From NCBI GenBank assembly GCA_028276405.1, contig JAPYWJ010000007.1:1-51344 (forward strand): a stretch of 51,344 nt of DNA, read 5' to 3'. A program made the translations under genes and the position numbers. This stretch comes from Hydrogenobacter sp. GTDB taxonomy: Bacteria; Aquificota; Aquificia; Aquificales; Aquificaceae. Below the pieces are notes generated by a model, which was not told the origin of the DNA, did not search any database, and saw only the letters and a program-made list of their open reading frames with translations. This document shows, piece by piece, positions 38,205 through 44,549 of this stretch; position 1 is the stretch's first letter; each line of letters opens with the position of its first letter.

Positions 38205-39416
38205 ATGCAAGACCTTAAGTTTAGCAGTATTGAGGAGGCAATAGAGGACATAAGGGAAGGCAAAATGGTTATAGTGGTTGATGACCCAAGCAGAGAAAAC
38301 GAAGGAGACTTGGTTATGGCTGCGGAGAAAGTCACACCTTCTGCCATAAACTTTATGACCAAGTACGGAAGAGGGCTCGTGTGTCTTACGCTAACACAGG
38401 AAAGGTGCGAAGAGCTTGACCTTTACCCTATGGCTACAAGGAACACAGATCCCAAGGGAACCTACTTTTGCGTGTCTATTGACGCCCATCCCAAATTTGG
38501 CACCACCACAGGCATATCCGCTTACGACAGAGCTATTACCATAAAACTTGCCATAAGCCCGGATGCAAAGCCATCTGACTTTATTCGTCCGGGGCATGTG
38601 TTTCCTTTGAAGGCAAAACCCGGTGGTGTGTTGGAGCGAGCGGGACACACGGAAGCCTCCGTAGACCTTGCAAAACTTGCTGGTCTTTACCCCGCAGGAG
38701 TAATATGCGAAATCATGAACGAAGATGGAACCATGGCAAGACTGCCAGACCTCATAAAGTTCGCACAAAGGTTTGGGCTTAAGATAATAACCATAGCTGA
38801 TCTCATAAGCTACAGGCTCAAAAAAGAAAGGTTAGTTGTCAGAGAGGCTACAGCAAACCTTCCTACGAGGTACGGATTTTTCAAGATACATGCCTACAGG
38901 CATGTGCTTACAGGAGAAGAACAGATAGCTCTTACCATGGGGGAGTGGAAAGAGGACGAGCCAGTGCTTGTACGCGTACACTCAGAGTGTCTTACGGGGG
39001 ATGTTTTTAAGTCTCTAAGGTGTGATTGCAGGTCTCAGCTTGAGACCGCTATGGAGATCATAGCCAAAGAGGGCAAGGGTGTTCTGGTATACATAATGGG
39101 ACACGAAGGAAGGGGTATAGGTATAGTTAATAAGATAAAAGCTTACCATCTACAGGATATGGGATACGATACTGTAGAAGCTAACGAGAAGGTAGGCTAT
39201 CCAGCAGACCTAAGGGACTACGGTGTAGGGGTTCAGATCCTGTTAGACCTAGGTGTAAGAAAGATGCGCCTTTTGACCAATAATCCCAGAAAGATAGTAG
39301 CTTTGGAAGGATACGGGCTTGAAGTAGTGGAAAGAGTCCCTCTGAAAATAGAACCTTGCGAACACAACCAAAAATACTTAGAAACTAAAAAGTCTAAACT
39401 TGGGCATCTACTTTAA
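38205..39416 (+). CDS. ribBA: 3,4-dihydroxy-2-butanone-4-phosphate synthase / GTP cyclohydrolase II
   Basis: A 403-residue bifunctional enzyme for the two entry reactions of riboflavin synthesis. The DHBP synthase half (about 1-200) shows [12 protein letters not shown] and [10 protein letters not shown]. The GTP cyclohydrolase II half (about 205-403) shows [19 protein letters not shown] with its three zinc cysteines, GHEGRGIG, and LLTNNPRKI near the end. A good SD (AGGAGG) precedes the ATG. The mobile-element remnant begins about 10 bp behind its stop. Confidence 0.96.
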
Positions 39417-39433
39417 CCCAAATCCGCAAGAAG

Positions 39434-39457
39434 TCTCCATCTTCTGTAAGGTGGAGA
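39434..39457 (+). repeat. 10-bp hairpin, first copy of the terminal repeat
   Basis: TCTCCATCTT (39434-39443) pairs with AAGGTGGAGA (39448-39457) around CTGT, with one G-U pair. The 3' arm recurs at 39604-39612. No T run follows, so it is not a typical terminator of ribBA. Confidence 0.6.
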
Positions 39458-39472
39458 TGAATTGCAAAAGAC

Positions 39473-39501
39473 TTGACAGGGTTCTTATTTTGGACTATAG
39501 T
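39473..39501 (+). promoter_or_regulatory. Consensus promoter inside the element remnant
   Basis: TTGACA (39473-39478), 17-bp spacer, TATAGT (39496-39501). It is the closest match to a sigma-70 consensus that I found in the window. There is no ORF behind it, and the expected start (39507-39509) coincides with the 5' end of the first stem of the structured RNA. Confidence 0.7.
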
Positions 39502-39507
39502 AATAGA

Positions 39508-39620
39508 TGTCCCGATAATCAAGGGACCTAGGGCTGGAGCGGCCCGAGGTTAAGCCTGTGGAGAGGTGGAAGCCTCTGTGAAGCAGGAAGTGGAACCTTC
39601 TATAAGGTGGAGTAGTTCAC
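39508..39620 (+). ncRNA. Predicted structured RNA, omegaRNA-like
   Basis: Starting where the promoter would initiate, four stems follow in order: GTCCC/GGGAC (39509-39513 with 39523-39527), GGGC/GCCC (39531-39534 with 39542-39545), CCTG/CAGG (39555-39558 with 39584-39587) enclosing AGAGG/CCTCT (39562-39566 with 39573-39577), and ACCTT/AAGGT (39595-39599 with 39604-39608). It ends in the IS605-type tail TAGTTCAC. This layout resembles the guide-RNA scaffold of TnpB elements. The 3' end is not known; sequence after 39620 is antisense to the kinase gene. Confidence 0.5.
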
Positions 39621-40598
39621 AGGTAGGTAGACTCTGAATTTACTACCTTCCCCTTCTTTGCTCTCCACCTCTACTTTTCCGCCGTGTGAAAGTGCTATGT
39701 GTTTAACTATGGAAAGACCCAAACCCGTGCCTCCCACCTCTTTTGACCTAGACCTGTCCACCCTGTAAAACCTCTCAAACACAAAAGGCAAGTGCTCTTT
39801 TGGTATACCTATACCAGTATCAGAAACTTCTATAACCGCGTGCGCATCTTGTGTGTAAGCACTTACTACTACTTGACCGTTCGTTTTATTGTACTTTACC
39901 GCATTATCCACAAGATTCAGAAGCAGAAGAGCAAGCTTTTCTTGGTCCGCATAAATTTTAAAGTTTTCATCTACGCGGTTTATAAGTTGGACTTTTTTGT
40001 TTTGTGCCACCTCTTTAATATTATCAAATACCAGCTCAACCACATCCCATAAACTTAGATTTTCTTTTCTAAGCTTTTCTTCTCCTGACTCAAGTTTTGT
40101 AATGATTAAAAGGTCTTCCACCAGGTTCTTCATGTCCTCAGACCTTCGTAAGGCTCTCTCTAACATACTCTTCTTTTTTTCGTCTTGCTCTTCTTCTATA
40201 AGGGTTTCAAGTATGCTTCTTATTATGGCTATCGGTGTTTTAAGCTCGTGCGACACATTAGCCAAAAACTCCTTTTTTGACCTTTCGTATCTTTTAAACT
40301 GTGTAATGTCTGTTATTCTTAAAAGTATGCCGTCTTTTGCGGAAAATAAGTCCACTGAATACTCCATTTGATCGTGTTCAACAAAAATCTTGATCCTTTT
40401 CTTCTCCGCTATACACTCCGCTATGGCTGATACGAAAGCAAGCAAATTGAAGCACTCGTAATAAAGCTTGCCTTCCCAATTTTCTTTAATTATATGCCTC
40501 TTGATCATAAAGTCATTGGCGTAAACCACTATTCCAGATGTGTTTATGACCGCATAGCCTTCATCCACTTCCCTGAGGAAATCACTTAAAATACTCAT
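39600..40598 (-). CDS. PAS-domain sensor histidine kinase (PhoR-like)
   Basis: A 332-residue soluble kinase without transmembrane helices: a PAS-like domain (about 1-100), the H-box with phosphorylated H117 (FLANVSHELKTPIA), and a catalytic domain with N-box LLNLVDNAVKYN, DTGIGIP and GGTGLGLSI. The start codon follows the metE stop without a gap, so expression is probably coupled. No response regulator is present in the window. The last six residues (VNYSTL) and the stop codon are encoded by the right end of the IS605-like remnant on the other strand, so the original C-terminus has been replaced. Confidence 0.9.
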   Translation of the reverse strand: MSILSDFLREVDEGYAVINTSGIVVYANDFMIKRHIIKENWEGKLYYECFNLLAFVSAIAECIAEKKRIKIFVEHDQMEYSVDLFSAKDGILLRITDITQFKRYERSKKEFLANVSHELKTPIAIIRSILETLIEEEQDEKKKSMLERALRRSEDMKNLVEDLLIITKLESGEEKLRKENLSLWDVVELVFDNIKEVAQNKKVQLINRVDENFKIYADQEKLALLLLNLVDNAVKYNKTNGQVVVSAYTQDAHAVIEVSDTGIGIPKEHLPFVFERFYRVDRSRSKEVGGTGLGLSIVKHIALSHGGKVEVESKEGEGSKFRVYLPVNYSTL

Positions 40599-42957: not shown

Positions 42958-44511
42958 TCATCGGGACGCCCCTCCAACCTCTAAAGGAGCTAACCTACTC
43001 CTCACCCTATCCCATACCCCTTCCACCAACACTGGCTTCAGAGGAGAAAGGTCTCTTGGCAAGACCTTTCCAAGGATAGGCAAAAGGAGGGCTACCCTCA
43101 GAACTTGCCAAGCGGATTGAGAGACTTTTTTGGTCTCTCCCCGCTCGGAATTCCTTCCATCGGCTCCCTCACAGGAACTTAGCTCACTCTGAAGGCTTTG
43201 TATGAGATCAGCTAAAAGCTTCTTTGCATACTCTACATTCTTTAGTTCGCTTTCTAATCCATTACTCTTATATTCGTTGGTTTCCTTCTTTATAAGTTCC
43301 GTAAGTTTCTCTTCTCTCTCTTCATATCTTTTCAAAGCAAACTCCAAATATGCTTTGTCTTTTAGCAGTCTTTCGTAATTCTCAGGTGTGTCTTCTCTGA
43401 AACCTAATGCCCTTCTCCCTATCACATATGCGGATGCTATGTCTTTGTCTATGTTCAACTGCGGTGCATATTTTAGCATGCCAATAACTGATGTGTAGGC
43501 GGGATTTACCTCTACTACTTCCACTCCCTTTAACATTGCTACTCTTTTTAGCTTTTGCAAGAACTTTTTGGCATTCCAATGATGAAGCCTTTTTCTTAGT
43601 GTAGCTTTCCCATCTCCTCGCTTTCCCTTCTTAAGCTTTTTCAAATTCTCCACAGCTATAGCTTTGCCTTTCTCAATAGCTAAATCTACTACTTTGTGTG
43701 CCAATATCCATTCCTCATTGTCTTTGCTATTTTTGGAGAGTTCCAAAAGGTGATGTAAGCTGATACTCTGATAGCTTACTAATTCTCCAGTTTTTGATAC
43801 CTCTGCTATAGCTAAATGAATTGGTGATGCGTTAATGTCTATGGCTATTACTCCGTTCTCTTTGGTGCACCTAACTTCAGGTGTTGGAAGTTCAAAGGAT
43901 ACGCTTCCATAAACTTCTCCATCTCTCAGTTTTAACTCCACTGTGTAGGCAAAGTAGTTTTTTGTTTGCCAGCTTTCTAAAAGCATAGCCTTAAAAGTTA
44001 TCCATTTATCTTTGCTATTGCTGGGTTCCCTTAACACTTTGGCATAAATAAACTCTCTGTTTCCTGTGGTAATTCTAATGTGTAGCTTTCCGTTTAGGTC
44101 TTCAAACCTTGTCAATCTGTTTCCTTTGTCTGCCTTTGACCCAATGCTTATGAGTGTTCCTTGTCTTTGTTCTTTCCATTGCTTTTTAAGTCCTTCTTTT
44201 GCTTTTCCTGTAAGGTGGTTTTTACAAAGCTTTTCAAAAAGTCTTTTGCCTCCAAAGACCACTGGCTTATCTGTGGGATATTGCTTAGCTTTGTAAATGG
44301 CTAAGTCAATGTATTTGGTTGGCAATTCAGGGAATAGTTGTCTTAGTCTGTGGTATACTTGGGCGTGTGGGTTTTTTGTTTTTTCTTTTTCCAACTCCTT
44401 TAGTATGTTGTATGCAACCCGGATGGTGGAAGATTGCTTACGCATCAGCTTTATGAGTTTTTCTTTGTCTTCCTTTCTTAGTTCAAGCTTGAACTGTAGG
44501 CTAACAAACAT
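42958..44511 (-). CDS. TnpB-like RuvC nuclease lacking the zinc ribbon
   Basis: A 517-residue protein of the TnpB/IS605-OrfB superfamily. The RuvC triad is visible as D225 (VIAIDINASPIHLAIAEV), E288 (KAIAVENLKKL) and D357 (DKDIASAYVIGRRALGF). Between E288 and D357 the usual pair of CxxC zinc motifs is absent; the sequence runs from NPAYTSVIGMLKYAPQ directly to RuvC-III. This matches the accessory or TnpB-related subgroup. A charged, coiled-coil-like extension (about 370-445) and a tail (445-517) follow; the tail's DNA also encodes strong hairpins. It has its own consensus promoter. No tnpA is nearby. RNA-guided DNA cleavage is possible but unproven for this subgroup. Confidence 0.85.
   Translation of the reverse strand: MFVSLQFKLELRKEDKEKLIKLMRKQSSTIRVAYNILKELEKEKTKNPHAQVYHRLRQLFPELPTKYIDLAIYKAKQYPTDKPVVFGGKRLFEKLCKNHLTGKAKEGLKKQWKEQRQGTLISIGSKADKGNRLTRFEDLNGKLHIRITTGNREFIYAKVLREPSNSKDKWITFKAMLLESWQTKNYFAYTVELKLRDGEVYGSVSFELPTPEVRCTKENGVIAIDINASPIHLAIAEVSKTGELVSYQSISLHHLLELSKNSKDNEEWILAHKVVDLAIEKGKAIAVENLKKLKKGKRGDGKATLRKRLHHWNAKKFLQKLKRVAMLKGVEVVEVNPAYTSVIGMLKYAPQLNIDKDIASAYVIGRRALGFREDTPENYERLLKDKAYLEFALKRYEEREEKLTELIKKETNEYKSNGLESELKNVEYAKKLLADLIQSLQSELSSCEGADGRNSERGETKKVSQSAWQVLRVALLLPILGKVLPRDLSPLKPVLVEGVWDRVRSRLAPLEVGGASR
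43046..43139 (-). ncRNA. Structured RNA segment within the 3' end of the TnpB-like gene, candidate omegaRNA
   Basis: On the gene's strand three perfect hairpins occur in 94 nt: 7 bp (43133-43139 with 43119-43125), 5 bp (43095-43099 with 43087-43091) and 9 bp (43062-43070 with 43046-43054). The 7-nt loop of the last one (43055-43061) is complementary to 43106-43112, which allows a pseudoknot. In TnpB loci the guide RNA overlaps the 3' end of tnpB. RNA boundaries are unknown. Confidence 0.4.
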
Positions 44512-44520
44512 CAGGGTTAG

Positions 44521-44549
44521 ATTTTAGCTTTAAAACTTTTGTGTGTCAA
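44521..44549 (-). promoter_or_regulatory. Promoter of the TnpB-like gene
   Basis: Minus strand: TTGACA (44549-44544), 17-bp spacer, TAAAAT (44526-44521), 9 bp to the ATG, no SD. It lies inside the terminal repeat, so the element carries its own promoter. Confidence 0.65.

Follow-up and report, generated by a model that had tools for sequence, protein, structure and literature searches.

What would be transcribed from the promoter TTGACA-17-TATAGT, at positions 39473–39501 of the plus strand of a 51,344-nt Hydrogenobacter sp. contig (the window), when no open reading frame (ORF) of at least 50 aa follows on that strand up to 39620? An initial annotation took the stretch 39473–39620 for an orphan omegaRNA-like gene with no TnpB beside it, and both the position of the promoter, which matches the consensus at 11 of 12 positions, and the absence of an ORF behind it were confirmed. 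By a sigma-70 matrix, however, the promoter ranks fourth across the whole window and is not the best one, as had been stated. The top-scoring promoter, TTGACA-17-TAAAAT at 44549 (−), precedes a gene (42958–44511, −) for a 517-aa TnpB-like protein, which carries RuvC-type motifs, lacks the CxxC zinc finger, weakly matches PF07282 and PF09958, and has homologues of similar length in genomes G019 and G058.

The boundaries of the feature were defined by comparison with two congeners (G001 and G002), which carry the same ribBA/kinase junction with the element absent. The empty sites read CTCTAA|AGGTAAG (G001) and CTTTAAG|GGTAAG (G002), versus CTTTAA|element|AGGTAGG in the window, indicating a 204-bp element at 39417–39620 (+) that was inserted 3′ of TTTAA (39412–39416) without target duplication. 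Elements of the IS200/IS605 type insert 3′ of their target and do not duplicate it. The TTTAA, which is the presumed TAM, overlaps the ribBA stop codon, and T[TC]TAA likewise precedes other copies of the element. The interval given in the initial annotation missed the left end, which begins at 39417 and includes a palindrome, CTCCATCTT-CTGT-AAGGTGGAG (39435–39456), common to other copies and to a full-length tnpB element of the same genome (L027). At the right end, a second palindrome (39590–39613), paired at 10/10 positions in copy L002, has a damaged lower stem in the window, and it is followed by the terminus AGTTCAC (39614–39620), which was placed by both copy alignment and the empty sites. 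Given the damaged stem, the window copy may no longer be mobile. No transposase ORF is present, and the 204 bp are too short to encode one. Identity to L027 is 96.6% across 58 bases at the left end and 88% across 42 bases at the right end. A short element that shares its subterminal palindromes with an autonomous-type element, and that lies 3′ of a fixed short target with no duplication of it, has the features of a PATE. The insertion did not disrupt ribBA, and in the convergent histidine-kinase gene it took the place of the final codons; the kinase ORF (39600–40598, −) terminates within the element. The element right end (39600–39620) supplies the final codons and stop of the kinase (VNYSTL*); in the congeners the kinase C-terminus differs, and the kinase gene overlaps the ribBA 3′ end.

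Further copies were found in the genome of the window (G000; 1.36 Mb in 55 contigs). Four of them also carry the promoter (C33:35818, C4:11355, C16:28760 and C4:40079), and a sixth promoter-bearing copy occurs in another genus of the same family (G019). Flanking sequences are unrelated among the G000 copies, and the sequence downstream differs at every copy. The one full element, L027 (C33:8927–10231), shares these ends, has its promoter at the corresponding position and encodes a 408-aa TnpB that aligns to ISDra2 TnpB structures (E 6e-77). Recurrence of the arrangement in four other copies, and of its ends in the complete tnpB element, indicated that it did not come about by chance. Nor is it an orphan, being one member of a mobile family with five promoter-bearing copies in G000, and the reported lack of tnpB holds for its neighbourhood only, since the cognate gene lies on contig C33. 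In G000, tnpB-less copies outnumber cognate tnpB. A search of G000 for the Y1 transposase (PF01797) gave no match, with positive controls, so the element, which by its sequence has been mobile in the past, must have been moved by a TnpA that acted in trans or has since been lost. Several sister copies have no left end or promoter, and L004, L005 and L009 are truncated; together with the damaged right-end palindrome of the window copy, these losses point to ongoing decay. In L004 and L005 the left end is swapped for the apparent end of another IS (TTTTTAGAACAGCC), and the promoter and RNA body persist. Two other G000 relatives are a shorter one with the left end fused into the scaffold and no promoter (L032, 1650–1795), and an ends-only copy of roughly 55 bp (L037, 1098–1151).

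IS605-type PATEs have been reported in Haloquadratum walsbyi (PMC3119063) and Halanaerobium hydrogeniformans (PMC7290912), and, like the element here, they are short, transposase-free, have near-terminal palindromes and leave no target duplication; the 271-nt Halanaerobium PATE consists of a left end, the last 58 nt of tnpB and a right end. The passages of these reports that deal with the elements treat them as DNA only; neither a promoter nor a 5′ hairpin nor a role as guide RNA is mentioned there. The 204-bp element could likewise be an ordinary PATE: a passive derivative left by deletion and mobilised in trans by a transposase, with promoter and scaffold as remnants of tnpB and only the ends of importance, as DNA. 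According to these reports, PATEs are frequent and often have lost their cores, and the promoterless copies L032 and L037 and the truncated copies in G000 fit this explanation, which we nevertheless regard as unlikely because promoter and internal stems, dispensable for transposition, have been retained.

The promoter itself supports such retention. Its −35 hexamer TTGACA is invariant across the six promoter-bearing copies, and the −10 hexamer, TATACT in the other copies, is near consensus in the compact copies versus TAGAAT in the tnpB copy L027, a difference that counts against an ordinary PATE. In the intact tnpB element TTGACA stands at an identical distance from the left-end hairpin, indicating that the promoter of the compact element occupies the tnpB promoter position.

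The predicted transcript (39508–39620) folds with −41 kcal/mol (z = −2.2). As initially proposed, its predicted start falls at a hairpin, GTCCC-GATAATCAA-GGGAC (39509–39527), and its body is of the omegaRNA type, joining the tnpB 3′ end (ERPEVKPVE ... SLCEAGSGTFYKVE, then stop) to the right end (...TAGTTCAC) and ending at 39620. The scaffold comprises stem 1, GGGCTG-GAG-CGGCCC (39531–39545), derived from the tnpB 3′ coding end, and a core, CCTGT...GCAGG (39555–39587), with the inner stem AGAGGT/GCCTCT. A pseudoknot in which the link pairs with the AGTTC tail was also considered; with 83% pairing and an absence of double changes, it had only partial support.

The scaffold proved conserved and covarying. 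Among the tnpB-less loci alone, 91.6% of pair cells were standard, 184 cells carried double changes versus a shuffled mean of 61 and 19–36 for slid structures, and the covariation score was 0.464 versus 0.192 when shuffled, in an alignment that was fitted to the model and hence biased towards it. In one tnpB-less lineage of 18 copies, the two internal stems have undergone substitutions and nevertheless pair in 103/107 and 107/108 cells. The copies are not independent, and some of the covariation may go back to tnpB-linked ancestors. Still, compensatory changes that preserve the stems, which the initial annotation had named as a check, argue against an ordinary PATE. The same annotation would have been refuted by unrelated, unconserved sequence in related genomes: absence of the element from the congeners at this locus resembles that outcome, but they present a clean empty site, and at other loci its sequence is conserved, promoter and structure recurring in relatives.

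To what extent such loci occur in the order was surveyed with the covariance-model search that had likewise been suggested, which was run on 64 genomes from the family and on 112 from the order. A set of 119 scaffold loci was classified by the presence of a TnpB coding sequence directly upstream, and 50 had no tnpB and 61 were tnpB-linked. In the family of the window (79 loci), 41 were without tnpB, 32 with it, 2 were remnants and 4 were undeterminable at contig ends; the other families of the order contributed 9 without, 29 with and 2 undeterminable. By sequence classification, this family of thermophiles is rich in guide-only elements. The best promoter score within 160 nt upstream averaged 10.3 for tnpB-less versus 6.5 for tnpB-linked loci, and a significant promoter (p 0.05 against dinucleotide shuffles) preceded 26/50 versus 2/61, counts in which copies within a lineage are not independent and which represent about nine distinct promoter sequences. 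Two further tnpB-less lineages have different 5′ domains: GGTGGAGAGC...CCTCCACC with the promoter TTGCAY-17-TAAAAT in L094, L104, L105, L082, L096 and L111, and GGGGAATAACTGCAGGGG...CCCCTGCGACCC with TTGATT/TTGACT-15/16-TATAAT-like promoters in L069, L134, L140 and L153.

Beyond Aquificota, a pattern scan gave at least 34 loci with no TnpB detected upstream, many of them archaeal, and among those listed five had a significant sigma-70 promoter, one of the five being from Aquificaceae. As evidence outside the order is thin, our claim is made for this order only. In uncultured Ruminococcus, four scaffold copies without tnpB (L206, L163, L224 and L226) have a palindrome at the left end, and L206 shows TTGACA-17-TATACT immediately ahead of the scaffold; possibly, the Ruminococcus loci are an independent case outside Aquificota.

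The 5′ hairpin also recurs. With the loop GATAACCAA or a close variant, it was found no more than 130 nt from the scaffold, near the predicted start, in 27/50 tnpB-less loci and at the same place in 0/61 tnpB-linked loci. Its stems are lineage-specific and all pair (GTCCC/GGGAC, GCTTAGC/GCTAAGC, GTTGAC/GTCAAC, GGCTGAC/GTCAGCC, GATAGCC/GGCTATC and CTGC/GCAG), and, with one sequence per lineage and pairs counted outward around the loop, pairing exceeded that of partner shuffles (p about 1e-4). Preservation of the hairpin across several lineages is not expected of an ordinary PATE. An origin from the tnpB leader was not seen. The exact nonamer GATAACCAA is present in 16 tnpB-linked loci, and in 15 of them it occupies one place, 295–369 nt (about 330) upstream of the scaffold in the RuvC-II coding sequence, where 3–5 base pairs flank it. 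The reading frame of the nonamer differs between two TnpB groups, giving G-D-N-Q-A in one and A-I-T-K-Q in the other, so coding alone is insufficient to explain it. Synonymous-site constraint on the hairpin in tnpB was suggestive only (rank 2/204 in one group and 22–24/214 in the other). The cognate tnpB of G000 carries just a relative of the loop, GAAAACCAA, and for the hairpin of the window we infer a RuvC-II origin from these comparisons. Judged by its sequence, the compact RNA seems to join a promoter, an internal tnpB hairpin and the 3′ scaffold. The internal deletion suggested in the initial annotation holds in that the tnpB promoter position now adjoins the 3′ end of tnpB and the right end, but more than one fusion is needed: the RuvC-II-like hairpin makes the deletion more complex than a single one.

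Directly behind the element, the putative guide AGGTAGGTAGACTCTGAATT (39621–39640, +; 20 nt being assumed by analogy with described TnpB systems) is antisense to the kinase gene and matches the G001 empty allele beside the target motif at 16/20 positions (four differences). Host takeover of the RNA for regulation, whether by antisense action on the kinase gene or by directing a TnpB-type protein to a gene of the host, would suit a promoter-driven RNA with a guide complementary to the kinase mRNA; it is very improbable, however, as the congeners have no insertion, the first 16 guide nt have no second exact match in G000 (the nearest having two mismatches), and the downstream sequence differs per copy, as expected if insertion defines the guide. 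That the RNAs are decoys competing with the RNA of the tnpB copy and limiting TnpB activity or spread would accord with the excess of tnpB-less copies over cognate tnpB in G000 and with the common scaffold. Nothing specific speaks against it beyond the expectation that a full scaffold beside a guide is active, not only inhibitory; we consider it scarcely credible.

The feature is probably best explained as a PATE of the IS200/IS605 type that has no tnpB but carries a compact omegaRNA gene with its own promoter, the RNA of which is putatively loaded by TnpB in trans. Its boundaries, empty site, ends in common with a tnpB element, conserved promoter and structure, and many relatives were established by sequence comparison. 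Such an element would have arisen from a tnpB element by deletion that spared the left end and promoter; where the predicted transcript starts there is a short hairpin akin to RuvC-II coding sequence, and the guide-RNA scaffold would be supplied by the 3′ end of tnpB together with the right end. From 39621 onwards the transcript would continue into host DNA and so acquire a guide that matches, next to TTTAA, the allele without the element. The intact C33 copy may then provide TnpB that loads this RNA in trans and cuts empty alleles, which would favour retention of the element, and retention through cutting of empty alleles has been reported for complete IS elements (PMC11870625).

The omegaRNA (reRNA) of ISDra2 TnpB likewise has a scaffold made of the tnpB 3′ end and right end with the guide directly downstream (PMC8612924), and reRNA is processed from tnpB mRNA (PMC10278001). 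TnpB omegaRNAs are usually transcribed with or processed from an adjacent tnpB, whereas here tnpB is neither adjacent nor overlapping, the cognate gene lies on another contig, and the RNA has a promoter immediately in front of it. An Rfam search at the gathering score gave no hit, either across the window or for 12 related loci. Identity with RAGATH-18 of IS607 TnpB (RF03064, PMC11061315) is not supported: it matches the scaffold core weakly (29.8 bits, below the gathering score of 44.9), with 0 hits in the 12 related loci, and, unlike RAGATH-18, the element has palindromic IS200/IS605-type ends and a scaffold that overlaps tnpB coding sequence. In the survey of RAGATH-18 RNAs, 36% were not adjacent to a TnpB gene (PMC11061315). 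No description of promoter-driven tnpB-less omegaRNA elements was found in the literature searched, which comprised openly available papers under RNA names spelled without the Greek letter. In 2021, Altae-Tran et al. reportedly found IscB omegaRNA loci without a nuclease gene in Ktedonobacter racemifer and suggested that they act in trans; these are nuclease-less guide loci as here, but of IscB rather than TnpB. What is added here is the recurring promoter-plus-hairpin architecture, its abundance in the family and the link of the hairpin to RuvC-II.

More tentatively, the element may represent a widespread class of guide-RNA-only elements, built of promoter, 5′ hairpin and scaffold, that exploit TnpB in trans, with the GATAACCAA hairpin being a hidden omegaRNA domain encoded in the RuvC-II region of tnpB. 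Whether functional omegaRNA extends into the central part of tnpB can be tested directly with the conserved 5′ hairpin, and the compact RNAs represent minimal scaffolds that occur naturally. If the RNA acts in trans, a single tnpB gene would be enough for many guide-only elements, the retention advantage of complete elements would extend to non-autonomous ones, and genomes with more guide loci than tnpB genes would be explained.
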